A stretch of 64,000 nt of DNA from Amycolatopsis albispora (GTDB taxonomy: Bacteria; Actinomycetota; Actinomycetes; Mycobacteriales; Pseudonocardiaceae): NCBI RefSeq assembly GCF_003312875.1, contig NZ_CP015163.1, positions 7,998,001-8,062,000 on the forward strand, written 5' to 3'. Of this stretch, positions 40,315 through 62,494 are shown one piece after another (the stretch's first letter is position 1; each line of letters opens with the position of its first letter). The position numbers and the translations under genes are program-made. The notes under the pieces are model-generated. The model was not told where the DNA came from. It saw only the letters and a program-made list of their open reading frames with translations, and made no database searches.

Positions 40315-42780
40315 CTACGAGCAGGACGAAGCCTCTTCGGTGGCGGGTGCCGCCCAGGCGCCGGCCTTGGCCTGTTTTTCGGCGAGCACCCGCCGCGGCA
40401 GTTGCGAGCGGGCCACCTCACGCAGCAGCGGGCTCCGGAACGAGTACTCGACCTGGACGGCGGCGGCCAGCCGACGGTGCACCCGCAGCAAATCCCGTCG
40501 TGCCAGGGCTTCCAGCGGCTCCACCACGTCACCCACGTCGGCATCGGCCAGCACGGCGACCGCCTCTGGGGCGAACGGATCGTCGAGCACCGCCGCGTCC
40601 CGCAGCACCGCCTTCTCGGGCGGCGGCAGCGCGTCGAGCTGCGCGGCCAGCATCGCGTGCACGGCCGGCGGCACGGCCGGGGCCGCGCACACCGCCCAGC
40701 GCGTCGCCGCGGCCGGCCAAGCGGGTGCCGGCGCGGCCCGCCGCAGCACCCTGGCGTACTCGGTGGCGAACCGCGGATTGCCGCCGAGCCGGGGCGCCAG
40801 CCGCTCGTACTGCCTGCCCGGCTGCCCGGTCAGCGCGCCGAGCAGCCGCGCGGTGGCCCCGTCGGACAGCGGCTCCAGCGTCATCGTGGTGGTGTCGCGG
40901 TGGGCGGGCGCCCGCTGCCCCGCGGTGACCACCAGCAGCGGCAGCCGCTGCGCGAGGTCCTCGACGAACCGGTGCACCGGCTCGCCCGCGAGGTGCAGGT
41001 CGTCCAGCAGGACCACCAGCGGCGCGGTGGTGGCGGCGGCTTCGAGCAGCGCGCGGCAGGCGGGCATCGACTCCGCGAGCGCCGCGTTGCCCGGCTCCCA
41101 CACCAGCGGGCGCAGGTGCGCGGCCACCCACGACGCCTGGTTCCCGGTGCCGAGCAGCAACTGGACCGTCTCGGCGAGCCGCGCGGCCACGGTGCCGAAC
41201 GAGCTGCCCGCTTCGATGCCCGCACACGACCGCACCAGTTCCGCGAGCACCTCCAGCGGTTCCCCGCCGCGGGCCCGGACCACGCGCACCGGCTCCCGCA
41301 GTTCCCGCACCGAACGGCCGAACTCCGCCAGCAGCCTGCTCTTGCCGATCCCCGGCTCGCCGAGGAGCGCGACCAGGTGCGCGCGCCGCCACCGGCGTAC
41401 CTCGTCGAGCAGCCCGTGCAGCCTGCCGAGTTCGCGGTCGCGGCCGATCAGCTGGCCCGTGCCCGGCTCGCCCGACGCCGTCACCGGCCCGTCCACGCGG
41501 GCGGCCGCACCGGTGGTGGTGAACTCGAAGGCGTGCCCGGTGGCTTCCCTGGTGGCCGCGCAGACCCGCACCTCACCGGCGGCCGTGTGCGCGAGCAGGC
41601 GCAGCCCGGTTTCCAGCAGGCCGCCGGAAACCTCGGGCGCGCGCTGCCCGGACAGCGACACCAGCGCGTCGCCGGTGGTGACCGTGGCGTGCGCCCGCTG
41701 GAGCCGGTCGCGCAGCGCGAGCGCGGTCCGGACCGCGTTGACCGCGTCCTGCTCACCGGTGCGCGGCACGCCGAACAGCACCAGCCAGGTCGAGCCGATC
41801 GAAGCGCGGACGCTGCCGCCGAACCGCCGCGCTTCGGCGTGCACAGCTTCGCTCTGCTCGTCGTGCAACTCACCGAGGTCCTCGGGATCCTCGGTGGCGG
41901 GGTCCGGTTCGGCCCGCACGAGCACCGCGCTGATCCGCTTCCGTTCCAGCGTCACGCTCGGGCGCCCGGCGAACTCCAGCCGCGCGACGTTGCTCGGTGC
42001 GGGTGCGGTTCCGGCCGATGTGGACAGTGCCAGCGACGGATCGTGGTTGAGAATGGCGCGTTCCAGTGCCTGGAGGTCACGGCTGGGGTCGAGGCCGAGG
42101 CTGTCCACCAGCGCGGTGCGCGTGCGCCGGTACGCGGTCAGCGCGTCGGCCTGCCTGCCGCACCGGTAGAGCGCGAGCATCAGCTGCCCGGCGAGCCGTT
42201 CCCGCAGCGGCTCGGCCTCGGCGACGGCTTCGAGTTCCCCGATCACCTCGTGGTGCCGTCCACCGGCCAGCTCCGCCTCCATGCAGTCCTCGATCGCGGC
42301 GAGCTTGGCGTTCTGCACGGTGAGCAGTTCGGGCCAGCGGACCCCGGATTCGACCAGGTCGGCCAGCGCCGGGCCGCGCCACAGCGCCAGCGCCTCGCGC
42401 AGGGTGGCGGCGGCGGTGTCGAACGACCGCGCGGTCAGCTCGGCGCGGCCGCGCTCGACCAGCTCGTGGAAGCGGAACAGGTCGACCTGACGGGGGTCGA
42501 GCCGCAGCAGGTAGCCGGGTGCCCTGGTGAGCAGGTCGGGTGCGCCGGGACCCGCCGCGGCGAACACCCCGCGCAGGTCCGCGATCGCGTTGTGCAGGAT
42601 CTTGCGCGCGGTCTGCGGGGCGTCGCCAGCCCACACCGCGTGGAGCAGCCTGCTGGTCGCCACCACGTTGTTCGCGTGCAGCAGCAGAAAACCGAGCGTC
42701 GCGCGCCGATTGTGCCCGCTGATGCCGATCGGATCGTGCCCGGAGAATATCTCCAGTGGGCCAAGCAGCATGAATCGCAT
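40315..42780 (-). CDS. AfsR-like regulator: SARP domains, degenerate cyclase domain, AAA ATPase
   Basis: 821 residues. Winged helix and BTAD domain at about 1-240. Residues about 280-440 look like a class III nucleotidyl-cyclase domain (GSVRASIGSTWLVLFGVP, then DAVNAVRTALALRDRL) but lack the metal-binding Asp pair (LVRAEPD in place of FxDxxGFT), so no cyclase activity is expected. Then an AAA/STAND ATPase with LIGRDREL, Walker A GEPGIGKS and Walker B LVVLLDDLHLAG, and a short C-terminal helical part. ATG 42780 is chosen because RFMLLGPLEIFSG is the usual SARP N terminus and GAGGGCG precedes it. Divergent from the LAL regulator; probably a pathway regulator of the adjacent tetronate-type operon. 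Confidence 0.85.
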   Translation of the reverse strand: MRFMLLGPLEIFSGHDPIGISGHNRRATLGFLLLHANNVVATSRLLHAVWAGDAPQTARKILHNAIADLRGVFAAAGPGAPDLLTRAPGYLLRLDPRQVDLFRFHELVERGRAELTARSFDTAAATLREALALWRGPALADLVESGVRWPELLTVQNAKLAAIEDCMEAELAGGRHHEVIGELEAVAEAEPLRERLAGQLMLALYRCGRQADALTAYRRTRTALVDSLGLDPSRDLQALERAILNHDPSLALSTSAGTAPAPSNVARLEFAGRPSVTLERKRISAVLVRAEPDPATEDPEDLGELHDEQSEAVHAEARRFGGSVRASIGSTWLVLFGVPRTGEQDAVNAVRTALALRDRLQRAHATVTTGDALVSLSGQRAPEVSGGLLETGLRLLAHTAAGEVRVCAATREATGHAFEFTTTGAAARVDGPVTASGEPGTGQLIGRDRELGRLHGLLDEVRRWRRAHLVALLGEPGIGKSRLLAEFGRSVRELREPVRVVRARGGEPLEVLAELVRSCAGIEAGSSFGTVAARLAETVQLLLGTGNQASWVAAHLRPLVWEPGNAALAESMPACRALLEAAATTAPLVVLLDDLHLAGEPVHRFVEDLAQRLPLLVVTAGQRAPAHRDTTTMTLEPLSDGATARLLGALTGQPGRQYERLAPRLGGNPRFATEYARVLRRAAPAPAWPAAATRWAVCAAPAVPPAVHAMLAAQLDALPPPEKAVLRDAAVLDDPFAPEAVAVLADADVGDVVEPLEALARRDLLRVHRRLAAAVQVEYSFRSPLLREVARSQLPRRVLAEKQAKAGAWAAPATEEASSCS

Positions 42781-42840
42781 GACCGTTCGCCCTCGGTCGA
42801 TAATTTTCGTATTCCGGCCTGCCAGCAGCGCCCGATCGGG

Positions 42841-42858
42841 GCGGACTTTCTCAGAAAG
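42841..42858. promoter_or_regulatory. GCGGACTTTC palindrome, copy next to the AfsR-like gene
   Basis: GCGGACTTTC followed by TCA and GAAAG makes the dyad CTTTC-TCA-GAAAG, about 61 bp upstream of the AfsR-like ATG. The same 10-mer plus GAAAG recurs at 43174-43193 near the LAL gene. Confidence 0.45.
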
Positions 42859-42940
42859 CTTACCGAACGGCCAAGTTGATGTGAAGGGGCTGAGCGGGCG
42901 ATTAATCCGCTTGGTCAATTATTTACTTAGAAAAACCTGA

Positions 42941-42954: not shown

Positions 42955-43173
42955 CGGTCCGCGGGTTGGGATAGCGCCGCTCGCTGGCCGTGTCGCGCGC
43001 TAATGGGCGGCGGTCCCGGTGCTGATCGGCGGCGGTTCCGGTACGGAAAATAATCGAACGTGCACCGAGAATGACTCCGCTGTTCGGCTTAGTCCGGCCT
43101 AGTGCAGATTCATCAGGCAAGCGTCCTGTGCTGGGTCGATGTGCGCCGAATTTCCGGCCAATGGGTCGGTTTC

Positions 43174-43193
43174 GCGGACTTTCCTACGAAAGT
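43174..43193. promoter_or_regulatory. GCGGACTTTC palindrome, copy next to the LAL gene
   Basis: GCGGACTTTC-CTAC-GAAAGT, with perfect ACTTTC/GAAAGT arms (43178-43193), lies about 87 bp upstream of the LAL ATG. It shares its first ten bases with the copy at 42841. Confidence 0.45.
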
Positions 43194-43223
43194 TGCTAGT
43201 TTGTTCAACGGTGCAACGACGCG

Positions 43224-43236
43224 CTGCTGTCAGCAG
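43224..43236. promoter_or_regulatory. CTGCTG-T-CAGCAG dyad before the LAL gene
   Basis: Perfect 13-bp palindrome 44 bp upstream of the LAL ATG, in the expected transcript leader or promoter. It could be an operator or a small leader hairpin. Confidence 0.35.
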
Positions 43237-43279
43237 GACAAAAGCAGCACCGTTGTGCGGTGCCGAGCGATCCGGGGGG

Positions 43280-46057
43280 ATGGCGATGGAACTGGTGGAA
43301 CGGGAAGAGCAGGTGCGGGTACTCGGCCTGCTGCTCAACGAAACACTGGTCAGGAAAGGTCAGGTCGTGTTGCTCGACGGCCCGGCGGCGAGCGGGAAAA
43401 CGGAACTGCTGCGGGTGTTCGCCGAACAGGCGCAGAAATCGGGGGTGCTATTCCTGAGCGCGCTGTGCTCGCGGTCCGAGCGCGAGCTGCCGTTCGGGGT
43501 GCTCAGCCAGCTGGTGCACAGCGCGGTGCTGCCTGCCGACCTGCAGGCGCGGCTGGTGCGCCTGGTCGACGAAGGGGTGGCCGAGGCGCTCGCCGCCCGG
43601 TCGCGGTCCGAACCGCCCGAGCTGGGCCAGGTGTTCCACGGCCTTTCCCTCGCCCTGCTGGAACTCGCCGCGCTCGACCCGCTGCTGATCGGCGTGGACG
43701 ACTTGCGGCACGTGGACGCGTTGTCCCTGCAGTGCCTGCTGTACCTGGTGCGGCGGCTGCGCTCGGCGCGGATCCTGGCCGTGTTGACCGACGACACCGA
43801 CCCGGTGCCGTCACAGCGGCCGTACGGCGCCGAACTGCTGCGCCAGCCCCACTTCCGGCGGATCAGGGTGGCGCCGTTGTCCGAGCGGGGCGTGGTGCGG
43901 CTGCTCGAGCAACGCGCCGACTTGCCCGCCGAACTGGCGCCGGAGTTCCACGCCGCCACCGGCGGCAACCCGCTGCTGCTGGCGTCGCTGGCCGAGGACC
44001 ACCGCGAGCTGGGCACCGCGCGGCCGGAGGGGTACGGGCTGGCCGTGCTGAGCTGCCTGCACCGCGGCGACCCCGTCCGGACGCGGGTGGCCCGCGCGGT
44101 CGCCGTGCTCGGCGGGGACGGGTCACCGGCGACGCTGGCCGAGCTGGCCGGGGCCGACCCGGACGTGGTGCGGCAGAGCTGCGCCGCGCTGACCGCGGCC
44201 GGACTGCTCGACACCGGCGTGTTCCGGCACCCGGTCGCCAGGCAGGCGGTGCTCGACGACCTGCCGCCGGACGAGCGGATCGAGCTGCACCGGCGGGCCG
44301 CGCGCCTGCTGCAGGAGGTGGGTGCCTCGGCGATGACGGTGGCGCATCACCTGATCGAGGCGGGTGACGTGCAACCGCCGTGGGCGGTCACCGTGTTGCT
44401 GGAGGCGGCCGAACAGGCGCTGCTGTCCGACCGGATGGAGCTCGCCGCCGACTCGCTGCGGCTGGCCCACCGCGCCAGCCTCGGCGACGAGGACCGCGCG
44501 GCCATCCGGGCGCGGCTGGCCTACGCCGAATGGCAGGTGAACCCGGCCGCCGCGGCCGAGCACCTGGCCCCGCTGGCCGCGGCCATGCGTGCCGACCAGC
44601 TCGACCGGCGCGACTGCATCGTGCTGATCCGGCAGCTGCTCTGGCACGGCCGTGCCGACGAGGCGATGGACCTGCTCGACCGGCTGCGGGCTTCGGTGCG
44701 CGAACAGCACACCGAGGCCGCCGCCGAACTGCGGCACACCGAGCTGTGGCTGACCAGCGTGCACCCGCCGCTGGCCAGCCGCCGCCCGCCCGCGCAGGGC
44801 GGCTCGCCACCCGCGCTGGTCACGCCCAGAGCCGATCCCGGACTGCAGTCCACCGCGATGCTGGCCGACGTGCTCGCGCGCGGGCGCAGCCACGAAGCGG
44901 TCGAACGCGCCGAGGGCGTGCTGCGGGACATCGACCTGAACCGCAGCACGTCGTGGGCCGAGGAATCGGCGATGCTGGCGTTGCTGGTGCTGATCACCGC
45001 CGGGCAGGCGAAGAGCGCGGCCGACTGGTGCGACCGGCTGCTCGGCGCGGCCGAGCACCGGCGGGCCCCGGTCTGGCGGGCGATGTTCGCCAGCGCCCGC
45101 GCCACCATCGCGGTCCGCCAGGGCGAACTGGCCGCGGCCGCCGAGCACGCCGAGCTCGCGCTGACCCAGATGGCCCGCAAGTCGTGGGGTGTGGCGATCG
45201 GCTTGCCGCTGGGCAGCCTGATCCTGGCGAAAACCCGGATGGGGCGGTTCGAGGAGGCCGCACAGCTGGTCACCTACACCGTGCCGGAGGCGATGTTCCA
45301 GAGCCGGTACGGGCTGCCGTACCTGTACGCGCGCGGCAACTACTACCTCGCGACGAACCACCACCACGCCGCGCTGGCGGATTTCCTGTCCTGCGGGGAG
45401 CTGACGCAGAGGTGGCGCCTGGAACTCGCCGGGCTGGTGCCGTGGCGGACTTCGGCCGCGGAAGCGTGGTTGCGACTGGGCAATTTGGAGCAGGCGCGGT
45501 TGCTCGTGCACGACCAGCTGGCGCAACCGGGCACCGACGGCTTCCGTACGCGCGGTGCGTCCCTGCGGTTGCTCGCGGCGTTGAGCCCGTCGCCGCGTCG
45601 CCTGCCACTGCTCACCGAAGCACTGGAACTGTTCGAATCGGCCGGTGACTGCTACGAACAGGCGCGCGTGCTGGTCGATCTGAGCCGAGTGCACTACGAG
45701 GCCGACGACAAGCGGCGCGCACGGAAGGTGTTCCGCCGGGCTTGGCACCTGGCGAAGGTGTGCGACGCGCAGCCGTTGTGCGCGGAGCTGCTGTCCGCGA
45801 GCAGCGATCTGTCCACAGGGGCCAGTGCCGGGGAGGACACCGCCGGCATCACCTCACTGACCAGTTCGGAACGCCGGGTCGCCGCGCTGGCGGTAATCGG
45901 TTACACCAACCGGGAGATCGCCGGGAAGCTGCACATCACCGCGAGCACGGTGGAACAGCACCTGACCCGCGTGTACCGCAAGCTCAACGTGAAACGCCGC
46001 AACGACCTGCCGCTGGACCTGCGGGCCGAGCCGGCACCGCGGATTCGCCTGGCATAA
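43280..46057 (+). CDS. LAL-type LuxR regulator (MalT-like ATPase)
   Basis: 925 residues. N-terminal STAND/AAA ATPase with LVEREEQVRVLGLLL and Walker A DGPAASGKTELL (about 32-43), Walker B LLIGVDDLRHVD, a long TPR-like middle, and a C-terminal LuxR HTH (LTSSERRVAALAVIGYTNRE region, about 860-915). ATG at 43280 after GGGGGG; the open frame extends upstream but only this start gives the normal ELVEREEQ beginning. LAL proteins are large pathway activators of antibiotic clusters. It points towards the convergent tetronate-type operon, ending 216 bp from the P450 gene. Confidence 0.9.
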   Translation: MAMELVEREEQVRVLGLLLNETLVRKGQVVLLDGPAASGKTELLRVFAEQAQKSGVLFLSALCSRSERELPFGVLSQLVHSAVLPADLQARLVRLVDEGVAEALAARSRSEPPELGQVFHGLSLALLELAALDPLLIGVDDLRHVDALSLQCLLYLVRRLRSARILAVLTDDTDPVPSQRPYGAELLRQPHFRRIRVAPLSERGVVRLLEQRADLPAELAPEFHAATGGNPLLLASLAEDHRELGTARPEGYGLAVLSCLHRGDPVRTRVARAVAVLGGDGSPATLAELAGADPDVVRQSCAALTAAGLLDTGVFRHPVARQAVLDDLPPDERIELHRRAARLLQEVGASAMTVAHHLIEAGDVQPPWAVTVLLEAAEQALLSDRMELAADSLRLAHRASLGDEDRAAIRARLAYAEWQVNPAAAAEHLAPLAAAMRADQLDRRDCIVLIRQLLWHGRADEAMDLLDRLRASVREQHTEAAAELRHTELWLTSVHPPLASRRPPAQGGSPPALVTPRADPGLQSTAMLADVLARGRSHEAVERAEGVLRDIDLNRSTSWAEESAMLALLVLITAGQAKSAADWCDRLLGAAEHRRAPVWRAMFASARATIAVRQGELAAAAEHAELALTQMARKSWGVAIGLPLGSLILAKTRMGRFEEAAQLVTYTVPEAMFQSRYGLPYLYARGNYYLATNHHHAALADFLSCGELTQRWRLELAGLVPWRTSAAEAWLRLGNLEQARLLVHDQLAQPGTDGFRTRGASLRLLAALSPSPRRLPLLTEALELFESAGDCYEQARVLVDLSRVHYEADDKRRARKVFRRAWHLAKVCDAQPLCAELLSASSDLSTGASAGEDTAGITSLTSSERRVAALAVIGYTNREIAGKLHITASTVEQHLTRVYRKLNVKRRNDLPLDLRAEPAPRIRLA

Positions 46058-46272: not shown

Positions 46273-47472
46273 CTACCAGGCCACCGGCAGTGCGTGCAGT
46301 CCGTACACCGCGCCCTGCCGCTTGTAGGGCAGGTCCTCCACCGGCGCGGCCAGCCGCAACGTGGGAATTCGCGAGACCAGTTCGCGGAACAGGATTTCCA
46401 GCTCCAGCCGGGCCAGGTTCTGCCCGACGCACTGGTGCACCCCGTAACCGAAGGCGATGTGATGGCGGGCACCCCGCCGGATGTCGAACACCTCAGGACT
46501 GGGGAAAACCCCAGGATCCCAGTCGGCGGCACCGAGCAGCGCGATGATGCCTTCGCCCGCCTTGATCGTTGTTCCACCCACCTCGATGTCCTCGGTGGCG
46601 ATGCGCGCGGGCACGATGTCGCCGATGCTCAGGTAACGCAGCATTTCCTCCACCGCGGAGCCGACCAGTGCGGGATCGGCGCGCAACGCGGCCAGCTGGT
46701 CGGGGTTTTCCAGCAGTGCCAGCGTGCCGAGGGAAATCATGTTCGCCGTGGTTTCGTGCCCGGCGTTGAGCAGCAGCAGGATGGTGGCCAGCAGGTTCTC
46801 CCTGGTGACATCGCCGGTTTCCAGGTGGTTGTGCACCAGGCTGCTGACCAGATCGTCGTCCGGCGTGTGCTGCTTCTGCGTGATGAGGTCGCCGAGGAAC
46901 GCCCTGATCTCGGTCATCGCCGTGGCCACCTCCTCCGGCGTGCTGTCGAAGGAGAGCAGGACGCCGGTTTTGTCCTGGAAGAACTCGTGGTCGGCGTACG
47001 GCACGCCGAGCGTGCGGCAGATCACCAGCGACGGCACCGGAAGCGCCAGGTGCGTGACCAAGTCGGCGGGCTGGTCCTGGGCCAGCAGGTGGTCGAGCTG
47101 CTCGTCGACGATCCGCTCGATCGCCGGGCGCAGCACCTTCATCCGCCGCACGGTGAACTCCGGGATGAGCATCCGGCGGTACAGCGTGTGCTCCGGCGGG
47201 TCCTGCCGCATGAACGGCGGTTTGTGCCCCTGCTTGACGATGTCCTTCTGGATCGGGATCAGCGGCGGGAACCCCGGCTTGGTGATGTCCGCGCTGACCG
47301 TGGGGTGGGCCAGTACCGCGCGGGCGTCGGCGTACCTGGTGAGCAGCCAGGCCGGGGTGCCGTCGGGCAGCTGCGCGCGGCTGACCGGCTCGGTTTCCCG
47401 CAGCTTGGCGTATTCGGACGGCGGGTCGAACGGGCACCTGCGCGCCATCGGGAACTCGGGGTCCTGCGTCAT
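46273..47472 (-). CDS. cytochrome P450
   Basis: 399 residues, CYP105-like bacterial P450. I-helix AGHETT (237-242), ExxR at 276-279 and heme-ligand loop FGYGVHQCVG with Cys348. Soluble, so needs external ferredoxin and reductase; none is encoded here. The ATG overlaps the acyltransferase stop (ATGA), so it is the last gene of the five-gene operon. Likely oxidises the product or an intermediate of that operon. In spirotetronate clusters the equivalent position after the acyltransferase is held by the AbyA5/Agg5 dehydratase, which is missing here. Confidence 0.93.
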   Translation of the reverse strand: MTQDPEFPMARRCPFDPPSEYAKLRETEPVSRAQLPDGTPAWLLTRYADARAVLAHPTVSADITKPGFPPLIPIQKDIVKQGHKPPFMRQDPPEHTLYRRMLIPEFTVRRMKVLRPAIERIVDEQLDHLLAQDQPADLVTHLALPVPSLVICRTLGVPYADHEFFQDKTGVLLSFDSTPEEVATAMTEIRAFLGDLITQKQHTPDDDLVSSLVHNHLETGDVTRENLLATILLLLNAGHETTANMISLGTLALLENPDQLAALRADPALVGSAVEEMLRYLSIGDIVPARIATEDIEVGGTTIKAGEGIIALLGAADWDPGVFPSPEVFDIRRGARHHIAFGYGVHQCVGQNLARLELEILFRELVSRIPTLRLAAPVEDLPYKRQGAVYGLHALPVAW

Positions 47473-48272
47473 CTCGACTCCTGGGTGGTCGCCCTCGCGG
47501 TGGGGGTGAGGGGGTGGGCGTCGGTGAATCCCTCCAAGCTCTCCTTGAGCTCGGCGAGCACGTCGGCGGCTTCGGCGCCGTCGATCACGCGGTGGTCGAA
47601 GGCCAGGCTCAACCGCATGACCGGGGCCGCGGTCACCACCCCACCGCGCACCACGGGCCGGTCGGTGATCCGGCCGAGGCCGAGGGTGACGGTGGTGCCG
47701 CCGACCGAGTGGAACCCGTCCACCGGCCGGTGGCCCAGCGAGGTGACCGCGAAGGTGCCGAACCGGGCCGCGCGCACTTCGAGCGGGCGCACCGCCAGTG
47801 CGAACAGCACCCGCCCCAGCCACGGTGGCAGGCGGTGCAGCTTGCGGGCGCCTTCGAACTCCGGCATGGTCTCGGCATCGCCATCGCGGAAGTGGTCCAC
47901 TCCGGACTGGATCTCGGCGAGCCCGGCCTCGTGCACACCGGTGAGCACAGTGGACAGTACGATCCGCTGCCCGTTGATCCGCTTGTCCAGGGTGACCTTG
48001 GCGGCCACCCCGCCGAACCGCGCCACCTTCGCGAACAGGCCACCGCGGACCGCCGCGTTCGCTTCGGGATGCCTGGTGAGCACACGGGCGGCGGAGTGCA
48101 CCACGTAGGTGAGCACGGAGATCCGCTCACCGGCCGCCTTCGCCCGTTCGCGGTGCTCGACCACCCGGCTCATGTCGATTTCGGTGTCCAGGAAAACCGG
48201 GGAGAAGCGCCGGATCTCACGCAGGAAGTAGAGCGTGTGCCGCCGCTCGCGGGCGATCGCCGGGAAGCTCAT
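47469..48272 (-). CDS. E2-type acyltransferase without lipoyl domain (Agg4/AbyA4-like)
   Basis: 267 residues, only the catalytic domain of 2-oxoacid dehydrogenase E2. The catalytic His227 in FDHRVIDG is present; no lipoyl or E1/E3-binding domain and no E1/E3 genes, so it is not part of a dehydrogenase complex. In agglomerin and abyssomicin pathways such a protein acetylates the hydroxymethyl group of the tetronate ring before elimination. ATG 48272 overlaps the ACP stop (ATGA). The specific tetronate role is inferred from gene order. Confidence 0.85.
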   Translation of the reverse strand: MSFPAIARERRHTLYFLREIRRFSPVFLDTEIDMSRVVEHRERAKAAGERISVLTYVVHSAARVLTRHPEANAAVRGGLFAKVARFGGVAAKVTLDKRINGQRIVLSTVLTGVHEAGLAEIQSGVDHFRDGDAETMPEFEGARKLHRLPPWLGRVLFALAVRPLEVRAARFGTFAVTSLGHRPVDGFHSVGGTTVTLGLGRITDRPVVRGGVVTAAPVMRLSLAFDHRVIDGAEAADVLAELKESLEGFTDAHPLTPTARATTQESR

Positions 48273-48493
48273 GCCGCGACCAGCGAGTACACGTCTTCGA
48301 GGCTGCCCGCTTCGAGCAGGTCCGGCAGCGAGACGGGCCTGCCGGTCTTCTTCTCGACCACGGTCAGCAGCCACAGCAGGTACACCGAATCCCACCCCGG
48401 CAGCTCGTCCAGGCTGCGTGCGGCGTCGGAGGTGGTGACCGCCAGGCCCAGTTCGTCGCGGACCAGCGTGACCAGATCGTCCACTGTGTTCAC
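48269..48493 (-). CDS. acyl carrier protein (glyceryl carrier)
   Basis: 74 residues. Phosphopantetheine attachment at Ser36 in LPGWDSVYLL. The preceding Gly-Trp matches the type of ACP that receives a glyceryl unit from FkbH-like proteins. Start GTG 48493 overlaps the fkbH-like stop (GTGA). Confidence 0.85.
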   Translation of the reverse strand: MNTVDDLVTLVRDELGLAVTTSDAARSLDELPGWDSVYLLWLLTVVEKKTGRPVSLPDLLEAGSLEDVYSLVAA

Positions 48494-50319
48494 TGGAGTG
48501 CTCCTCCGAAGTCGAGTTCTACGTGTGGTGGGACGGCGACGATCTCGCCGAGGTCGTGCCGGAATTCACCCGGTTCGGGCAAGGCGGTGAACCCGTAGCG
48601 GGGATAGAAGTCGGCGACCTTGCCGTTCTTCGCGGTGGGCCGGTAACTGCCGAACACCTCGGTGATGCCGTTTTCCCGGGCGTGGTGCAGCAGGGCGGAA
48701 AGGCAGGCCCGCTCGATTCCGCGCGAGAACACCCGGCAGCTGAGCACAAAATTGTCCAGGTGGAGTGAATTGCCCCCACGCCGGGCAAAAACGACGCCCA
48801 CCAGCCCGTTTTCCCCGAAGCGGTCACCCGACCGGATGGCGAGCACGTGCCACGCGGGATCGCCCGCCAGTTCGCGGACCTCGGGCAGCTGCAACCGCCG
48901 GGTGGTCAGGTTGAACTGGTTGGTGCGCAGGGTCAGCTGGGAAACCCGCGGGAGTTCCGCCTCGGTGGCCGGGGCGAAGCGGACTCGCACGCCCAGCTCG
49001 GCCAGGTACTGCTCGATCGAGTCGAAGCTGTCCAGGAAGTCCTTTCTGGACAGCTCCTCGCGGTACTTGTCCACGCGTGCCCGGTCTTCGACGGTCAGTT
49101 CGCGCACGTCGAACCAGCCGTCGGCGAGCAGGGTCCCCACGTGCAGCGCCGGGTCCCCGGTCACCGGCAGCACCGCCACACCGGGCAGCTGGTCGCGCAC
49201 CAGGCCGCATTCCAGCGTGCTGTCGTCGACGAAGGCGAACGCATCCACGCCGAGATTGAGGTCGGCCGCCAGCTGCCGGAGGTTGTCGTGCTTGGGCTGC
49301 CAGTTCGCGATGATCCGGACGAAGTCGTTCTCGCCCAGCGTCATTGCCGGGTTCTCGGTGAGCGCGCGGCGCACCGGTTCGAGGTCGTTCTTGCTGACCA
49401 CGGCGAGCAGCACGCCCTGTGATCCGATCTGCTTGACCACCCGTTGGAACGCGCGGAAGGCCTCACCGTGGTGACCCTCCGCGACCTCGATGCCGTCGTG
49501 CCCGTCCTCCCCGAGAATGCCACCCCACACCGTGCCGTCGAGGTCGAGCACCAGGCACTTCTTCGTGCGGCCCGCCGCGCCCCTGGCCAGGTGCCCGATC
49601 TCGCGGGCGTAGCGGGCGAGCAGTTCGGCCGAAAGGTGCATCTTCGCGTAGACGGCCAGTCGCGGGTCTTCGACCGGGATTCCTTCGGCCAGCAACGGTT
49701 CCAGGTCTATCACCAGCACACCCGGGTGCTGTTCACCGAAGCGCAGCAGCCGCGCGTTGGCTTCCCGCCACAGCGCACCGAGTTCGGCGCGCGAGCGGTG
49801 GTCGACCAGCTGCGCGGTGAAGCGGTGGGGCAGCGGCAGGGTGTTCAACACCAGGGTGCCCTTGCTGTTCGCCTCGAAGATCGACGCCAGTTTGTCCAGA
49901 ATGGACAGTTTCTCGTCGAGGGCCGCGCGCACGTCGGCTGGTCGCCACGGCACCGGTACCTCGGCGAAGATGGCCTCGGCGTCGAGCACGCAGAGGGTGA
50001 GCTCGGCTCCGGCCCGGTAGATGGCACTGTCCGGATCGGACAGTTCGGTGAGGTAGCCACCGAAGTCGCCGACGGTCGGGCGCAGCCGCAGGCCGTGCCG
50101 GGCGACCTCGGCGGTCAGCGACGGGACCAGCGGGGAAAGCGTGCCGTGCCCGGTGATCGCGACTCGTATCACGGTCGCCTCGTCGTCGTTGACGTCGAGC
50201 TGCGCGAGCAGCCGCCCGGCGCGGGCCAGCTCCGCGGGCGCCAGGTCGGCGAGCAGGGCGGGCACGCGGTGGTAGGCACCGGCGAGTTGCCCTTCGCGGT
50301 AGGCGGTGAAGAAGTCCAT
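48490..50319 (-). CDS. FkbH-like HAD protein, glyceryl-S-ACP synthase
   Basis: 609 residues. N-terminal SGNH-like region (about 50-245), HAD domain with D259-x-D261 in LVLDLDGTVWGG, and a C-terminal GNAT-like domain (about 455-600). FkbH-family proteins dephosphorylate 1,3-bisphosphoglycerate and load a D-glyceryl unit onto an ACP. ATG 50319 overlaps the KASIII-like stop (TGATG). The stop overlaps the ACP start. Confidence 0.9.
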   Translation of the reverse strand: MDFFTAYREGQLAGAYHRVPALLADLAPAELARAGRLLAQLDVNDDEATVIRVAITGHGTLSPLVPSLTAEVARHGLRLRPTVGDFGGYLTELSDPDSAIYRAGAELTLCVLDAEAIFAEVPVPWRPADVRAALDEKLSILDKLASIFEANSKGTLVLNTLPLPHRFTAQLVDHRSRAELGALWREANARLLRFGEQHPGVLVIDLEPLLAEGIPVEDPRLAVYAKMHLSAELLARYAREIGHLARGAAGRTKKCLVLDLDGTVWGGILGEDGHDGIEVAEGHHGEAFRAFQRVVKQIGSQGVLLAVVSKNDLEPVRRALTENPAMTLGENDFVRIIANWQPKHDNLRQLAADLNLGVDAFAFVDDSTLECGLVRDQLPGVAVLPVTGDPALHVGTLLADGWFDVRELTVEDRARVDKYREELSRKDFLDSFDSIEQYLAELGVRVRFAPATEAELPRVSQLTLRTNQFNLTTRRLQLPEVRELAGDPAWHVLAIRSGDRFGENGLVGVVFARRGGNSLHLDNFVLSCRVFSRGIERACLSALLHHARENGITEVFGSYRPTAKNGKVADFYPRYGFTALPEPGEFRHDLGEIVAVPPHVELDFGGALQ

Positions 50320-51350
50320 CAGCTCTTCTCCACCGCGAAGCCGGACTTGATCCACTTGCTGGATTCGACCGCGATGCCCGCCACCCGGTCGCCCGGCGAA
50401 AGCCACGGCAGCACCTTCGCCAGCTGCACGAACGGCATCGCGTTGCCGATGTTGCCGGTGTCCGCCACACAGGTGACCTCGTGCGCGTCCGGCACACCGA
50501 GGTGCTCGACGATCCGCGCGGTCATCTTGCCCGACAGCTGGGGCGGCAGGAGGTAGTCGAGATCGGCGGCGGACCAGTCCAGCTCGCCGAGCACCTCGTC
50601 CAGCGCCTCGGCCGCCAGCGCGGGCACGGACTCCTCGATCGCCTTGTAGTCCTCGAGCACCGGCGCCCGGTCGTCGTCGCGGTCGGCCACGCCGAACCAC
50701 TCCACCACCTGGCCGGGCGGACGGCCGAGCCCGACCAGCCGGACGAACACGTGCCGCAGTTCCACCGCCTCCGGTCCCGGTTCGCTGCTGAGCACGGCCG
50801 CCCCGGCGCCATCACCGAAAAGGATGAAATTCACCTGCTGCGCGGGCGGCAGTGCGGCGAAGTCGGTGTCGAAGTCGAGGTGCTTGACGCACACGTCACC
50901 GCCGAGCACGAGCGCGTTGCGGTGGCGGCCGGTGGACAGCAGCTGCCTGGCCAGGTCGAGCGCCTGCACCGCGCCGGTGCAGCCGGACTGGAGCTGGTAG
51001 GTGGGCACCTGGTCGATGCCGAGCCGGTCGGCGATCAGGTTCACCGTGGCCGGCATCAGCTGATCGGGAGTGGCACTGCCCATCACCACCAGGTCGATGT
51101 CACCGGGGGCCAGCCCGGCCCCGGTGAGCGCCTGGCGACCGGCCTCTTCGCCGAGGTCGGCCAGCGTCGCGTGCGGTTTTCCGGTTTCGGGGTCGATCGC
51201 GAGGTGGCGGGTGCGGGTGCCGATGAAGGTGTCCACCCACTGCCGCCACGCGCCGGTGGTGCCGAAGCGCGCGGCCAGCGCCGCGTTGTCCACCAGCGGC
51301 CCGGGAAAGGCCGTGCCCGCGGCCAGTACGTACGTTTGACGGGCGCCCAT
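50319..51350 (-). CDS. KASIII-like synthase, tetronate ring-forming type (AbyA1/RkD-like)
   Basis: 343 residues. Thiolase fold with nucleophile Cys124 in QLQSGCTGAV. The His of the usual HQAN motif is Pro270 (LLPPQLS), while the Asn of the GNTS motif is kept as Asn300 (TGNIGNA). In tetronate pathways this enzyme joins glyceryl-ACP to a beta-ketoacyl chain, making the C-C and C-O bonds of the ring; FabH-type decarboxylative initiation seems unlikely without His. ATG 51350 with GGGAGGAAA upstream. First gene of the operon. Confidence 0.85.
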   Translation of the reverse strand: MGARQTYVLAAGTAFPGPLVDNAALAARFGTTGAWRQWVDTFIGTRTRHLAIDPETGKPHATLADLGEEAGRQALTGAGLAPGDIDLVVMGSATPDQLMPATVNLIADRLGIDQVPTYQLQSGCTGAVQALDLARQLLSTGRHRNALVLGGDVCVKHLDFDTDFAALPPAQQVNFILFGDGAGAAVLSSEPGPEAVELRHVFVRLVGLGRPPGQVVEWFGVADRDDDRAPVLEDYKAIEESVPALAAEALDEVLGELDWSAADLDYLLPPQLSGKMTARIVEHLGVPDAHEVTCVADTGNIGNAMPFVQLAKVLPWLSPGDRVAGIAVESSKWIKSGFAVEKS

Positions 51351-51396
51351 CGAGTTTCCTCCCTGCCGAGAATTCGCCTCATGCTCGGGCGGTGGG

Positions 51397-51412
51397 CTAA
51401 ATCCTTTCTTTC
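51397..51412 (+). promoter_or_regulatory. possible response-regulator site CTAAA-N6-CTTTC
   Basis: Two pentamers 11 bp apart, in the spacer between the KASIII-like operon and the response regulator gene, 95 bp upstream of the latter. Resembles the inner half-site pairs at 53939 and 57447. Short and degenerate, so could be chance. Confidence 0.25.
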
Positions 51413-51506
51413 GCGGTACTTACGCCGCCGAACTCAGGAACGTCTAATCAGGCTGTGCGATGGTGTTTTCGAGATGGCGTTTCCGGTGGTGCGAAAGGGC
51501 GGGACG

Positions 51507-52172
51507 ATGCGGGTTCTGGTGGTCGAGGACGACGTCCGCCTCGCCGAAGTGCTGTCGTCGGGTCTCACGGCCGAGGGCTTCGACGTGGACGTGGTCCACG
51601 ACGGGTTCGACGGCTACTGGCAGGCCCGCGAAGGCGCGCACGACGTGGTGGTGCTCGACGTGCTGCTGCCGTCGATCAGCGGTTACGCGGTGGCGAAGCG
51701 GCTGCGGGCCGAAGAGGTGTGGACGCCGGTGCTGATGCTCACCGCGAAGGACGGTGAATACGACGAGGCCGACGGCCTGGACGTGGGCGCCGACGATTAC
51801 CTCCGCAAGCCGTTCTCGTTCGTGGTGCTGGTGGCGCGGCTGCGTGCGCTGGCCAGGCGCGGCGCGACCCCGCGCCCGCGGCTGCTCAGCCACGGCGGGC
51901 TTTCGCTCGACCCGGAGTCCGGCGAGTGCATGGTCAACGGCAAGCAGCTGACCCTGCAGCCGCGCGAGCGCGCATTGCTGGAGGCGCTGCTGCGCAACCG
52001 CAACCGGGTGATGTCGAAGGACCGGCTGCTCAACGCGGTGTGGGGGCTGGACTCGGCGGGGGACACGAACCTGGTCGAGGTGTACGTGTCCTACCTGCGC
52101 CGCAAGATCGGCGCGGCCCGCATCGAGACGATCCGCAGCCTCGGGTACCGCCTGGTGGACCCGGATGCCTAG
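51507..52172 (+). CDS. OmpR-family response regulator
   Basis: 221 residues. Receiver with VVEDDVRL (5-12), phospho-acceptor Asp51 in VVVLDVLLPSISG and Lys in RKPFSF; winged helix ends RSLGYRLVDPDA. ATG 51507; the open frame extends far upstream but this is the normal receiver start. Overlaps the kinase gene by 8 bp. Likely controls the two downstream modules whose promoters carry matched direct repeats. Confidence 0.93.
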   Translation: MRVLVVEDDVRLAEVLSSGLTAEGFDVDVVHDGFDGYWQAREGAHDVVVLDVLLPSISGYAVAKRLRAEEVWTPVLMLTAKDGEYDEADGLDVGADDYLRKPFSFVVLVARLRALARRGATPRPRLLSHGGLSLDPESGECMVNGKQLTLQPRERALLEALLRNRNRVMSKDRLLNAVWGLDSAGDTNLVEVYVSYLRRKIGAARIETIRSLGYRLVDPDA

Positions 52173-53514
52173 GGTGCGGCCGCGCTCGCTGCGGTTGCGG
52201 CTGACCCTGGTGGTCACGCTGGCGGTCGGCCTGGCGCTGACCGTCGCCTCGTTCGTGCTGGTCAACAGCATGTCGAACACGTTGTTCGGGGACATGGCCG
52301 ACGCGGCGGCGCGCCAGGTGGACAAGGTGGCCGACGCGGTCGAGCACGGGCAGCCGCTGCCGCCGGAGGACCCGTCGGCGGCGACGATGATCCGCGTCGA
52401 GGACCAGGACGGGAAGCTGGTCACCTCGGTGCCGCAGACCGGCGCGAAGGCGGCGGCCGACCGGCCGGTGCCCGCCGAACGCACCCGCGCGGCCGGTTCG
52501 GCGGGCGCCGAGCCGAAGCCGCCGGCCGAGGACTTCGAGATAGTGCCCGCGCGCACGGTGACCACCCCGCAGGGCGAGGTGCGCACGATCCGGGCGATCT
52601 CGCGGTCGGGGCAGATCACGCAGAGCATCGACCTGGTGGTGAACTCGCTGCTGGTGGCCGCGCCGGTGCTGACGATCTTTGTCGGCTGGCTGACCTGGTT
52701 CGCGGTGGACCGCGCCCTGCGCCCGATCGAGGCCGTGCGACGGCGCGCGGAGGCAATCAGTCACTCCACTTTGGACGAACGACTGCCGGAGCAGGACACC
52801 GGCGACGAGGTCGGCAGGCTGACGCGGACGCTGAACCGCATGCTGGACCGCATCGCTTCGGGCGCGCGGCGGCAACGCGAATTCGTTTCGGACGCTTCCC
52901 ACGAACTGCGCACGCCGCTGGCGGCGATGCGGGCGGAGCTGGAGGTTTCGCTGGCGCACCGGGACAGCGCCGACTGGCGGAACGTGGCGACCCGGTTGCT
53001 GGACGACCACCGCCGCCTGGAGCGGCTCACCGGCGACCTGCTCACCCTGGCGCGGCTCGACGAGGCGGCGGTGTCCCGGCGGGCGGAACCCGTGCGGCTG
53101 GATGAGCTCGTGGCGGGGGAAACCAGCGCGGTGCGGCACGCGGAGGTGCGGGCTTCGCTGGTCCCGGTGCGCGTGACCGGCGTGGTGCCCGAACTGGTGC
53201 GGCTGGTGCGGAACCTGCTGGACAACGCCGACAAGCACGCGGCGGGGGTGGTCGCCGTTTCGCTGCGGGTGGACGGCGGTTCCGCGGTTTTTGCCGTGGA
53301 GGATGACGGCCCGGGCGTGCCACCGGATCAGCGGGAACGCGTCTTCGACCGGTTCCACCGCGTGGACGGCAGCCGAGACCGCGCCAGCGGCGGCGTCGGA
53401 CTCGGTTTGGCGCTGGTCCGCCGAATCACCCGCAGCCACGGCGGGGAGGTCACCGCCACCGCTTCCCCCACTTTGGGCGGTGCCCGGTTCGAGGTCCGCC
53501 TCCCCCTGAACTGA
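52165..53514 (+). CDS. sensor histidine kinase
   Basis: 449 residues. Two membrane helices (about 11-33 and 158-182) flank a 125-residue extracytoplasmic sensor that is Ala/Pro-rich in part. HAMP domain, H box SDASHELRTPLAAM, N box NLLDNADKHA, G1 EDDGPG and G2 GVGLGLAL follow. ATG at 52165 within the end of the response regulator gene. Cognate kinase of the regulator at 51507. Confidence 0.93.
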   Translation: MPRVRPRSLRLRLTLVVTLAVGLALTVASFVLVNSMSNTLFGDMADAAARQVDKVADAVEHGQPLPPEDPSAATMIRVEDQDGKLVTSVPQTGAKAAADRPVPAERTRAAGSAGAEPKPPAEDFEIVPARTVTTPQGEVRTIRAISRSGQITQSIDLVVNSLLVAAPVLTIFVGWLTWFAVDRALRPIEAVRRRAEAISHSTLDERLPEQDTGDEVGRLTRTLNRMLDRIASGARRQREFVSDASHELRTPLAAMRAELEVSLAHRDSADWRNVATRLLDDHRRLERLTGDLLTLARLDEAAVSRRAEPVRLDELVAGETSAVRHAEVRASLVPVRVTGVVPELVRLVRNLLDNADKHAAGVVAVSLRVDGGSAVFAVEDDGPGVPPDQRERVFDRFHRVDGSRDRASGGVGLGLALVRRITRSHGGEVTATASPTLGGARFEVRLPLN

Positions 53515-54464: not shown

Positions 54465-55523
54465 ATGAAAAAGCGCACGATCGCCTTCATCGCGGTCCCG
54501 GTGGTGGTCGCCGGAGCGGTCACCGCGGTGCTGCTGACCACCGGCCGTCCCGCGCCGCCCGCCGGCGCCGGGCAGCCCGCCACGAACACCGCGCAGGTCT
54601 CGGTCCGCGACCTCAGCCGGACCGAGACGATGAACGGTGTCATCGCCTACCGCGACGAGCGCGACCTGCCCACGGCGAAGGGCGGCATCGTGACCATGCT
54701 CCCCGGTGTCGGCGAAACGGTGAAGTCCGGCGGCGTGCTGATGCGCGTGGACGAGCGGCCGGTGGTGTTGTTCAACGGCACCATTCCCGCCTACCGCGAC
54801 CTCGGCCCCGGCATCACCGACGGCCCCGACGTGGCGCAGCTCGAGGAAACGCTGGTGAACCTCGGCTACGGCAAGAAGTCGAGCACCTATCCCGACGCGC
54901 ACTGGAACTCGGTGACCACCACCGCGCTGAAGAAGTACCAGGAGGACGTCGGTGCGGTCATCGACGGCATCGCCTCGCTCGGCGACATCGTGTTCACCCC
55001 GGGAGACGTGCGCATCGCCAAGCGGAACACCACGGTCGGCGCGCCGGTGGTGCCGGGGCAGGCGGTGCTCACCGTGTCGAGCACCGAGCGCCTGGTCACG
55101 GTGGACCTCGATCCGGTGAACCGCGATCTGGTGACGGTCGGTGCCGCGGTCAAGGTGGAACCACCGAGCGGCGACAAGCTCGACGGCACCATCGAGGAGG
55201 TCGGCACCGCGCTCGAAGCCGACGCCGACGGCAAGCAGGTCTACAAGCTCAAGGTGAAGCTGGCCGACGCCGCCGCCGCGGGGGACAACGTCGCGCTCGC
55301 CCCGGTGACCGTGCGGTACACGACGGTTGTCGCGGAGCAGGCGCTGACCGTGCCGGTGGCCGCGGTGGTCGGCGTGCCCGGTGGCGGTTACGCGGTCGAT
55401 GTGCTGCCCGCGCAGGGCGGCGCCGCCGTCCGCACCCCGGTCGAGCTGGGGGCCTGGGGTGACGGGTTCGTCGTGGTGTCCGGTGGCGTGCAGGCCGGTG
55501 ACAAGGTGGAGGTGCCGAAATGA
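54465..55523 (+). CDS. HlyD-like adaptor with peptidoglycan-binding domain, module A
   Basis: 352 residues. One N-terminal membrane segment (6-25), an adaptor beta-barrel/lipoyl-like region (VVLFNGTIPAYRDL), a peptidoglycan-binding helical domain (DGPDVAQLEETLVNLGYG to ALKKYQEDVG, about 105-165), then a second beta-barrel and C-terminal domain (VPVAAVVGVPGG). Such fusions occur with MacB-type ABC genes in Gram-positives. Stop overlaps the ABC ATPase start (ATGA). Confidence 0.85.
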   Translation: MKKRTIAFIAVPVVVAGAVTAVLLTTGRPAPPAGAGQPATNTAQVSVRDLSRTETMNGVIAYRDERDLPTAKGGIVTMLPGVGETVKSGGVLMRVDERPVVLFNGTIPAYRDLGPGITDGPDVAQLEETLVNLGYGKKSSTYPDAHWNSVTTTALKKYQEDVGAVIDGIASLGDIVFTPGDVRIAKRNTTVGAPVVPGQAVLTVSSTERLVTVDLDPVNRDLVTVGAAVKVEPPSGDKLDGTIEEVGTALEADADGKQVYKLKVKLADAAAAGDNVALAPVTVRYTTVVAEQALTVPVAAVVGVPGGGYAVDVLPAQGGAAVRTPVELGAWGDGFVVVSGGVQAGDKVEVPK

Positions 55524-56203
55524 CCAGGCCCGTACTGGAAATCACCGAAGCGGTCCGCGAATACCCCGGTGTGCCACCGGTCCGCGCGCTCGACGGCGTC
55601 GACCTGACCGTCATGCCCGGCGAGTGGCTGGCGATCGTCGGCCCGTCTGGTTCCGGCAAGTCGACCCTGCTGAACCTGATGGGCGCACTGGACAAGCCGA
55701 CCTCGGGCTCGGTCCGGATCGACGGGCACGAGGTGGGCAAGCTCAACGACGAAAAGCTTTCCGCGTTGCGCGGCCGCTCGCTCGGCTTTGTCTTCCAGTC
55801 GTTCCACCTGCTGCAGAGCCTGAGCGCGCTGGACAACGTGGGCACCGCGCTGATGTACCGCGGGATTCCGGCGGCCGAACGCCGTCGCCGCGCGGAGTCG
55901 GCGCTGACCAGGGTCGGGCTCGGGCACCGGCTCGGCCACCGGCCGTCACAGCTCTCCGGTGGCGAGAGCCAGCGGGTGGCGATCGCGCGGGCGCTGGTCG
56001 GTGATCCGGCGCTGGTGCTGGCCGACGAGCCCACCGGCAACCTGGATTCCCGCAACGGCGAGGAGATCATGCGGTTGTTCGGCGAACTGCACGCCGACGG
56101 CGCGACGCTGGTGCTGATCACCCACGACGACGAGATCGCCCGCGCCGCCCCGCGCCGGGTGCACATCCGCGACGGCCGGATAGTCCAGGGGGCACTGGTA
56201 TGA
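55520..56203 (+). CDS. MacB/LolD-type ABC ATPase
   Basis: 227 residues. Walker A GPSGSGKST, signature LSGGESQRVAIARA, Walker B LVLADEPTGNLDS and switch His in LITHDDE. ATGA overlaps with both neighbours. Drives the permease at 56200. Confidence 0.95.
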   Translation: MTRPVLEITEAVREYPGVPPVRALDGVDLTVMPGEWLAIVGPSGSGKSTLLNLMGALDKPTSGSVRIDGHEVGKLNDEKLSALRGRSLGFVFQSFHLLQSLSALDNVGTALMYRGIPAAERRRRAESALTRVGLGHRLGHRPSQLSGGESQRVAIARALVGDPALVLADEPTGNLDSRNGEEIMRLFGELHADGATLVLITHDDEIARAAPRRVHIRDGRIVQGALV

Positions 56204-57420
56204 CCACCACCGAGGAAAGGCCGCCGCGGCTGGAGAAGTCCGTGCTGCGCTTCCGCGACGCGATCGCGCTGGGCAAGCTGGGTGTGCTCGGCAGGCGGGG
56301 CCGCGCGATGCTGACCGCGGTGGGCATCTCGATCGGCATCGCCGCGATCGTCGCGGTGGTCGGCATTTCCGCCTCCTCGCAGGCGAACCTGCTGCAGGTG
56401 CTGGACGATCTCGGCACCAACTACCTGACCGTGAAGCCGGGCCAGTCGTTCAGCAGCGACGAAGAGGCGCAGCTGCCCGCCGAAGCCGGTGGTCGTCTGT
56501 CCATTCTGGACCAGGTGCAGGCGGTGTCCACAGTGGCGCAATTGGACGTCACCGTCCGGCGCACCGACCAGATGCCCGCCACCGACACCCGGGGCGTGGT
56601 GGTGCTGGCCGCCGAAGCCGACCTGCTGTCCACTTTGAACGGGAAGCTGGCGTCGGGCCGCTGGCTCGACGCGGGTCTGTCCGGTTATCCGACCGTGGTG
56701 CTCGGCACCACCGCCGCGCAGCGCCACGGCGTGGACATCAGCGAGGGCGGGCAGCTGGTCTGGCTCGGCGAGCAGTGGTTCGCCGTGGTCGGCATCCTGC
56801 AGCCGATGCCGCTGGCGCCCGAGCTGGACAGCGCGGCGCTCATCGGCACCGGCATCGCCACGCAGCAGTTCGGTTACCAGGGTTCGCCGACCACGGTCTA
56901 CGTGCGCGCGAACCCGGACGACATCAACGCGGTGCGTGACGTGGCCGGCGCGACGGCGAACCCGGAGAGCCCGCAGGAGGTGGAGGTGACCCGGCCGTCG
57001 GACGCGCTGGAAGCACGGGCCGCGGCGGACACCGCGTTCACCACCCTGCTGCTCGGCCTCGGCGGGGTCGCGCTGCTCGTCGGCGGCGTCGGCATCGCGA
57101 ACGTCATGGTGATCTCCGTGCTGGAGCGGCGCAACGAGATCGGCGTGCGGCGCGCGCTGGGCGCCACCCGGCGGCACGTCCGCTCGCAGTTCCTGGTCGA
57201 GGCGCTGGTCCAGGCCGGGCTCGGCGGTTTCGCCGGGGTGCTGCTCGGCGCGGGCGTGACCGTGGTCTACGCGCTGGTGATGGGGTGGCCGATCGTGCTG
57301 CCGGTGGCCGGGCTGGCCGGTGGCGTGCTGGCCGCGCTGCTGGTCGGCGGTCTGGCCGGGCTCTACCCGGCCAGCCGCGCCGCCCGGCTCGAACCAGCCG
57401 AAGCGGTGCGGCCGGCCTGA
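56200..57420 (+). CDS. MacB-type ABC permease
   Basis: 406 residues. Four membrane helices: one near the N terminus (about 39-60), a large extracytoplasmic MacB-like domain, then three C-terminal helices with the FtsX signature GGVGIANVMVISVLERRNEI (about 292-311) and GVRRALGATRRHV. Probably extracts or exports a peptide or lipid-like compound in mechanotransmission fashion (family knowledge). Confidence 0.93.
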   Translation: MTTTEERPPRLEKSVLRFRDAIALGKLGVLGRRGRAMLTAVGISIGIAAIVAVVGISASSQANLLQVLDDLGTNYLTVKPGQSFSSDEEAQLPAEAGGRLSILDQVQAVSTVAQLDVTVRRTDQMPATDTRGVVVLAAEADLLSTLNGKLASGRWLDAGLSGYPTVVLGTTAAQRHGVDISEGGQLVWLGEQWFAVVGILQPMPLAPELDSAALIGTGIATQQFGYQGSPTTVYVRANPDDINAVRDVAGATANPESPQEVEVTRPSDALEARAAADTAFTTLLLGLGGVALLVGGVGIANVMVISVLERRNEIGVRRALGATRRHVRSQFLVEALVQAGLGGFAGVLLGAGVTVVYALVMGWPIVLPVAGLAGGVLAALLVGGLAGLYPASRAARLEPAEAVRPA

Positions 57421-57515: not shown

Positions 57516-57998
57516 ATGTCGAAGCGGTTGCTCAACGGCGGGCTGCCGGTGCTGGCCCTGCTGTTCGCGTTGACCGCCTGTGGCGGGACCGAACCGGCCC
57601 AGCCGCAGGAGAACCAGACCCAGCACAGCCTGCTGCAGTACGCCCAGTGCATGCGGGACAACGGGGTGCAGCTCGCGGACCCGCAGCCGGACAGCCCCGG
57701 CGCGATGTACGAGGGCGTGGACAAGGAGTCCGCGGCGTTCGTCGCGGCGAACAAGACCTGCGGGCACTTCCTCGACGGGGTGGTGCAGGACCGGCAGAAC
57801 CAGGATTCCGGCGACCAGGCCCAGCAGGACGAGGAGATGCTCGCGCTGGCGAAGTGCCTTCGGGAGAAGGGCATCGACGTGCCGGACCCGACCCCGGGCT
57901 CGGACACCCCGTTCGGCGACAAGCTGGACCGCACCGATCCGGCCACGGCGAAGGCGCTCAAGGAGTGCCAGCAGGCGCCCGCGCCGTCGCAGGGGTGA
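57516..57998 (+). CDS. lipoprotein with paired CMR/CLR motifs, module B
   Basis: 160 residues. Lipobox LTAC (Cys22), then YAQCMRDNGVQLADP and LAKCLREKGIDVPDP; clear paralogue of the protein at 54000, including AMYEGVD and the C-terminal LDRTDPATAKALKEC. ATG 57516 with GGAGGTGG upstream. Followed 4 bp later by an adaptor gene. Confidence 0.8.
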   Translation: MSKRLLNGGLPVLALLFALTACGGTEPAQPQENQTQHSLLQYAQCMRDNGVQLADPQPDSPGAMYEGVDKESAAFVAANKTCGHFLDGVVQDRQNQDSGDQAQQDEEMLALAKCLREKGIDVPDPTPGSDTPFGDKLDRTDPATAKALKECQQAPAPSQG

Positions 57999-58002
57999 GG
58001 TC

Positions 58003-62246: not shown

Positions 62247-62494
62247 GGCACCGTCCTTTCCCCGGATGGTTTCGCTGGGTGACGGAAGCCATCGTCGGCA
62301 CGCCGGCTAAAGCGGTGCTTTCGGGTGTCTTGCCCTCGTGCGCGGGTGTGCGCAGGGGAGGGCCGGTCGGTGCGTAGGGGCGGTTTCACGAGGCGGTTAG
62401 GGGCTTGGGTGAACCTCCGAACAGTGGCAAAGTCGCCGTTACCGGAACTGAGAAAGGGACCCGGTCGGGGGAAGACGAGTCACCGGAGGGCAAG

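Follow-up and report, generated by a model that had tools for sequence, protein, structure and literature searches.

The quartromicin (qmn) cluster of Amycolatopsis orientalis, listed as BGC0000133 in a table of PMC5859366, and the abyssomicin cluster are the described systems closest to the locus studied here. In the available parts of the published accounts, qmnH is described as having two tandem VstJ sequences and an acetylation-elimination sequence as confirmed for quartromicin (PMC4979870), while the quartromicin synthase is described as ending in an acyl carrier protein (ACP), its products being believed to be chains of hexaketide and pentaketide length (PMC10402262). The same partial accounts report a quartromicin A1 cluster in Amycolatopsis albispora (PMC10455768) and two quartromicin clusters found by a cyclase-directed survey (PMC7176366). 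Here we examined a five-gene operon within a 64-kb stretch of the A. albispora genome (the window), which corresponds to G000:C1:7998001-8062000 of the source contig, G000:C1, in a one-contig genome of 9.12 Mb; coordinates without this prefix are window positions. We conclude, with a probability of about 0.9, that this operon is the tetronate-forming part of a spirotetronate cluster of the quartromicin type, and hence of a kind that has been described before. Quartromicin is the best assignment because the locus combines a tandem cyclase, a hexaketide synthase with an ACP at its end and a KASIII sharing 95% identity with an A. orientalis entry. We infer that the cluster extends roughly from 40 kb in the window to a point 33 kb beyond it, G000:C1:8095000.

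The operon is read on the minus strand from 51350 to 46273 and all five genes are present. They encode, in order, a KASIII-like tetronate-forming ketosynthase of the AbyA1/RkD type (50319-51350, 343 aa; PF08545 and PF08541; nucleophile motif QSGC124TG), an FkbH-like glyceryl-ACP synthase of the AbyA2 type (48490-50319, 609 aa; TIGR01686 at 292.7 bits with a cut-off of 146.65; haloacid dehalogenase motif LDLDGT), a discrete ACP for the glyceryl unit of the AbyA3 type (48269-48493, 74 aa; WDS motif; PF00550 at 21.0 bits, barely above the cut-off of 20.8), an E2-type acyltransferase of the AbyA4/Agg4/QmnD3 type (47469-48272, 267 aa; PF00198 at 80.6 bits; motif FDHRVIDG) and a CYP105-like cytochrome P450 (46273-47472, 399 aa; PF00067 at 107.8 bits). 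The QSGC, LDLDGT, WDS and FDHRVIDG motifs were all read intact and presumably carry their usual meaning in these proteins. Consecutive genes overlap by 1, 4, 4 and 4 bases in the DNA (TGATG, GTGA, ATGA and ATGA), and the joint occurrence of FkbH, a discrete ACP and KASIII as overlapping genes constitutes a tetronate core cassette. An initial annotation, made from the sequence alone, had described these five genes with their order and overlapping stops and starts and had recognized a tetronate cassette in AbyA1-A4 order; profile matches, the DNA reading and the position of the KASIII in a tree bear out both descriptions. As the same five-gene order recurs in each of the three same-genus genomes examined (identity 85-97%), the operon is not a chance arrangement. 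A rival pathway raised at that stage was a different use of glyceryl-ACP, the formation of methoxymalonyl-ACP (FkbG-K), in which FkbH lies beside O-methyltransferase and dehydrogenase genes. Here FkbH is accompanied by KASIII, ACP, E2 and P450 genes and the operon holds no genes fitting the methoxymalonyl pathway, which was therefore rejected.

The A. orientalis entry matched by the KASIII is K4FDR4, and in our tree the two proteins fell together in one clade of five with a support of 100/100. The tree set 92 tetronate-side rows apart from 6 FabH-like rows, with a long-branch warning at this split, and the window protein fell inside the tetronate clade, as the initial annotation had anticipated. 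Its identity to tetronate-type KASIIIs is 56-95%, whereas identity to the three other KASIII-like matches of its own genome is 32-34%. In an alignment, the window KASIII retains Cys124 and Asn300 and carries Pro270 at the position of the FabH catalytic His. A pattern match found this proline, within LPPQLS, in all 92 tetronate-side rows; two of the six FabH-like rows gave His and the other four had no match to the pattern. The same proline is invariant in an 18-row alignment. These distributions indicate that Pro270 is a family trait and not a defect. The replacement of His by Pro, with Cys124 and Asn300 kept in the window protein, offers a simple diagnostic for the tetronate KASIII family. 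Separately, three loci of the same genus (L011, L012 and L013, in G013, G060 and G014) were seen to encode a deep-branching KASIII (55-57% identity) adjoining a divergent FkbH (48%), and possibly represent another tetronate-like pathway.

A type I polyketide synthase (PKS) is encoded on the same, minus, strand just outside the window, the nearest PKS gene ending at G000:C1:8064127, 2.1 kb past the right edge. A whole-genome search for acyltransferase (AT) domains placed six on the minus strand within G000:C1:8065354-8090071, and for each of the four genomes (own and three relatives) the corresponding region has six listed. Domain scans and motifs resolve a KSQ loading module and five further modules, the last of which is unreduced and without a thioesterase. 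Gene 1 encodes KSQ (VDAAQSSS)-AT(malonyl)-ACP followed by three modules with AT, dehydratase (DH) and ketoreductase (KR) domains and assigned to methylmalonyl, methylmalonyl and malonyl; gene 2 encodes one module with AT(methylmalonyl), DH and KR; and gene 3 encodes KS-AT(malonyl)-ACP, lacking both reducing domains and a thioesterase. Extenders were assigned from the GHSIG/HAFH and GHSQG/YASH signatures, which we take to be diagnostic. In the last ACP the serine is retained, within GFSS. A beta-ketothioester is the substrate used by FabH-like tetronate enzymes, according to the available part of PMC4979870, and a malonyl, unreduced last module fits this need.

A fifth gene, encoding a predicted hydrolase of the AbyA5/Agg5/QmnD4 type with 322 residues, lies directly upstream of PKS gene 1 on the minus strand (G000:C1:8092530-8091562). 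It was found by taking the open reading frame (ORF) after the E2 gene from 61 tetronate loci of named genomes: 42 of these matched one place, within G000:C1:8092536-8091547, at 45-54% identity. Among the remaining 19 ORFs, 11 form a second family joined to the first only via L125, a long ORF, and the last eight appear to be read in the wrong frame or to be other genes. The hydrolase is the only match in its own genome at E<=0.001, there is one match per genome in all four genomes, and identity in the three relatives is 83-93%. Agg4/Agg5 and QmnD3/QmnD4 are presented as acetylation and elimination pairs in the available parts of PMC4979870 and PMC5819245. Two nearby genes considered as the fifth gene, a beta-lactamase-fold gene (G000:C1:8062453-8063604) and a thioesterase gene (G000:C1:8092657-8093412), were rejected once an AbyA5-type hydrolase was found to exist. 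The beta-lactamase-fold gene lies, together with one for a class V aminotransferase, after the last PKS gene, and both share its strand.

These two findings decide against a PKS-independent operon, fed by fatty-acid metabolism and with the P450 performing the elimination, a possibility that the initial annotation had raised. Such feeding is plausible in principle for pathways of the agglomerin/RK-682 type, and the premise that neither a PKS nor a fifth gene is present does hold among the window genes scanned; for the genome it fails. When 80 kb to each side of the window were searched for a PKS and for an Agg5-like gene, both were found, the PKS having the expected unreduced, thioesterase-less last module, and the AT domains and hydrolase recur in all three relatives. 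No supply of the acyl chain by fatty-acid metabolism is required, nor is the P450 needed for elimination. Following the whole-genome AT-domain search and the domain scans of the region, we rejected a PKS-less pathway and consider it vanishingly improbable; a modular PKS belongs to the cluster, which separates it from PKS-independent tetronate systems.

With the hydrolase present, nothing is left for the P450 to replace. The P450 gene nevertheless closes the same operon, directly after E2 in all four genomes, and the hydrolase is located elsewhere, which could suggest that the P450 helps to make the exocyclic double bond with the hydrolase or instead of it. We judge this very unlikely. The hydrolase is conserved as well as present, the nearest solved structures to the P450 are the CYP105-like compactin hydroxylase and P450-SU1, and P450s of such clusters are known to act in oxidative tailoring: in the available parts of the abyssomicin literature, AbyV catalyses a late epoxidation (PMC10107801) and abyX is a further P450 gene of the cluster (PMC3625739). 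By analogy, the enzyme most likely acts as a hydroxylase that oxidises a chain carbon. A P450 match was obtained in 16 of 86 tetronate loci, none of them directly after E2, in a scan that kept only the best match per locus and in which many loci were cut by contig ends; this speaks, weakly, against the P450 as a general partner of tetronate cassettes.

The remaining signature gene encodes a predicted tandem, two-barrel spirotetronate [4+2] cyclase of the QmnH type (59081-60211, minus strand), in which PF18678 matches two stretches. Among solved entries its sequence matches AbyU, AbmU, PloI4 and a Cyc15-type cyclase, with a weak match to PyrI4 (E 0.07), and its best fold match, from a low-confidence model, is AbyU. 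The locus thus has what is expected of a spirotetronate cluster: a type I PKS with an unreduced, thioesterase-less last module, a VstJ/AbyU-type beta-barrel cyclase and, at the gene level, an E2 acyltransferase and an alpha/beta hydrolase as a predicted acetylation-elimination pair. It also has two features expected of quartromicin, a hexaketide synthase that terminates with an ACP and a cyclase with two tandem VstJ domains.

The genes, domains, motifs and synteny described above, set against the named pathways, suggest the following chemistry. The hexaketide synthase would make a methylated polyene beta-ketothioester from KSQ loading and methylmalonyl, methylmalonyl, malonyl, methylmalonyl and malonyl extenders, the first four extension modules acting with KR and DH and the last leaving its product unreduced. 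FkbH would load a glyceryl unit, from glycerate, onto the discrete ACP, and KASIII would couple this unit to the beta-ketothioester on the last PKS ACP, releasing the chain as a hydroxymethyl tetronate. The E2-type enzyme would acetylate the hydroxymethyl group, the separately placed hydrolase would eliminate acetate to leave an exocyclic methylene, and the tandem cyclase would join the units by [4+2] cycloaddition. Oxidation of a chain carbon would be the probable contribution of the P450.

Several observations weigh against this assignment. The cyclase fold model, with 8+8 strands, is of low confidence (mean pLDDT, the predicted local distance difference test, 58.6). The module 2 DH retains the His of the usual HxxxGxxxxP motif and carries Asp at the position of the Gly, so that the activity of this domain is uncertain. 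The hydrolase gene is 42 kb from the KASIII gene, unlike the contiguous abyA1-A5. K4FDR4 is presumed, from its organism and gene type, to belong to the quartromicin cluster, and the product could be a quartromicin congener, as the likeness rests on cluster descriptions and the KASIII match and not on tailoring genes. A related reading is that the cluster shares this spirotetronate architecture and makes a quartromicin relative with different tailoring: the tailoring set here, with the P450, the class V aminotransferase, the beta-lactamase-fold protein and a PQQ-propeller protein, may differ from that of qmn. Given the tandem cyclase, the ACP-terminated hexaketide synthase and the KASIII identity to the A. 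orientalis entry, we regard this as unlikely and retain the quartromicin-type assignment.

One lead that looks new concerns the location of the tandem cyclase. Its N-terminus resembles a signal peptide, in that an arginine-rich segment is followed by a hydrophobic core and an ending of the AGA type, and is preceded by GAAAGGAG; this layout recurs in all four genomes, and a good ribosome site stands before the signal-like start in the four tandem cyclases whose DNA was read. The protein has one Cys pair per barrel (45/181 and 231/362). A crude signal test was positive in all seven tandem-cyclase rows, which comprise six distinct proteins since P0121 is the G057 protein. All six have, in each barrel, a Cys just before strand 1 and another ending strand 8, with strand positions taken from the low-confidence model of the window protein. 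Outside the four genomes, 12 of 13 cyclase matches were examined (L107, whose frame looked wrong, was left out). The single-domain cyclases of other tetronate loci L062, L085, L120 and L124 have a signal-like start and such cysteines, and all five short cyclases (134 residues; L070, L091, L100, L105 and L123) of the abyssomicin branch, as defined by the KASIII tree, have neither cysteine nor signal-like start.

The signal-like N-terminus and bracketing Cys pairs hint that the final cycloadditions may take place outside the cytoplasm. In its fullest form, the proposal would be that the monomers leave through the neighbouring MacB-type exporter and are joined into the tetrameric ring by a secreted, disulfide-closed, two-barrel cyclase. 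Separate QmnH domains could not be produced by the method of one study (PMC10946715), as might be expected of a disulfide-bonded protein expressed in the wrong compartment. Against export, a Cys pair occurs in L080 in the absence of a signal-like start, both features are missing from L065, and L115 was negative in the crude test despite having the pair. This test was also positive in 4 of 19 other window proteins tested, of which 35745-37052 is probably a false positive, and in 20 of 115 ORFs of the region. A literature search, part of which returned mainly unrelated papers, found no report of an exported spirotetronate cyclase. We hold export and external ring assembly to be possible, with the balance leaning against them. 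As an observation in its own right, the PQQ-type beta-propeller protein beside the cyclase (60384-61985, plus strand) has a signal-like start and is kept in all three relatives.

The surrounding genes include possible cluster regulators, a BTAD/AAA protein of the AfsR/SARP type (40315-42918, minus strand; PF03704, PF13191) and a LuxR-type ATPase regulator (43139-46057, plus strand; PF13191, PF00196). On the plus strand there follow an OmpR/PhoB-type response regulator (51507-52172, start approximate, as matches begin at residues 342-346 of ORF 50481-52172), a sensor histidine kinase (52165-53514; PF02518, PF00512, PF00672), the MacB-type ABC exporter with HlyD adaptor, ATPase and FtsX/MacB permease (54465-57420), a second HlyD/PG-binding adaptor protein (57580-59049) and a SARP regulator (62405-63262; PF03704, PF00486). 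The class V aminotransferase gene (63266-64000, minus strand) runs off the window, its frame being open to G000:C1:8062439. In a search of 80 genus genomes, KASIII was present at 92-100% identity in four (own included) and at 56-65% in six more. The three relatives (G026, G053 and G057) each carry all 20 window genes tested, in unchanged order, in the 80 kb surrounding the cassette.

The position of the window edge made an ordinary cluster look exotic, the PKS lying 2.1 kb after the last base. Our analysis adds genomes with this KASIII type, all four of which have six AT domains listed nearby. If the cyclase is indeed exported, a natural product would here be assembled by cycloaddition outside the cytoplasm, which is unusual; such a location would point to a logic of self-protection and may explain why QmnH domains resisted production.

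Comparison with known systems places the locus nearest to quartromicin, which it resembles in genus, in KASIII, in a cyclase of tandem VstJ-like sequences, in a hexaketide PKS with a terminal ACP and in the E2/hydrolase pair, with KASIII as the one component matched to an A. orientalis sequence. Agglomerin and RK-682 are linear tetronates whose formation is not known to involve cycloaddition, and differ from the present cluster with its PKS and [4+2] cyclase. Glyceryl-ACP, KASIII and, for agglomerin, acetylation-elimination chemistry are shared, as far as the available part of PMC4979870 describes them. The abyssomicin cluster (abyA1-A5, abyB1-B3, AbyU) has the same KASIII-FkbH-ACP-E2 order, an AbyU fold like that predicted for our cyclase and, in the available part of PMC3625739, SARP and LuxR regulators and P450 genes. 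It differs in having seven PKS modules and in the position of abyA5 directly after abyA4, whereas the corresponding hydrolase gene here is 42 kb away, beside the PKS.

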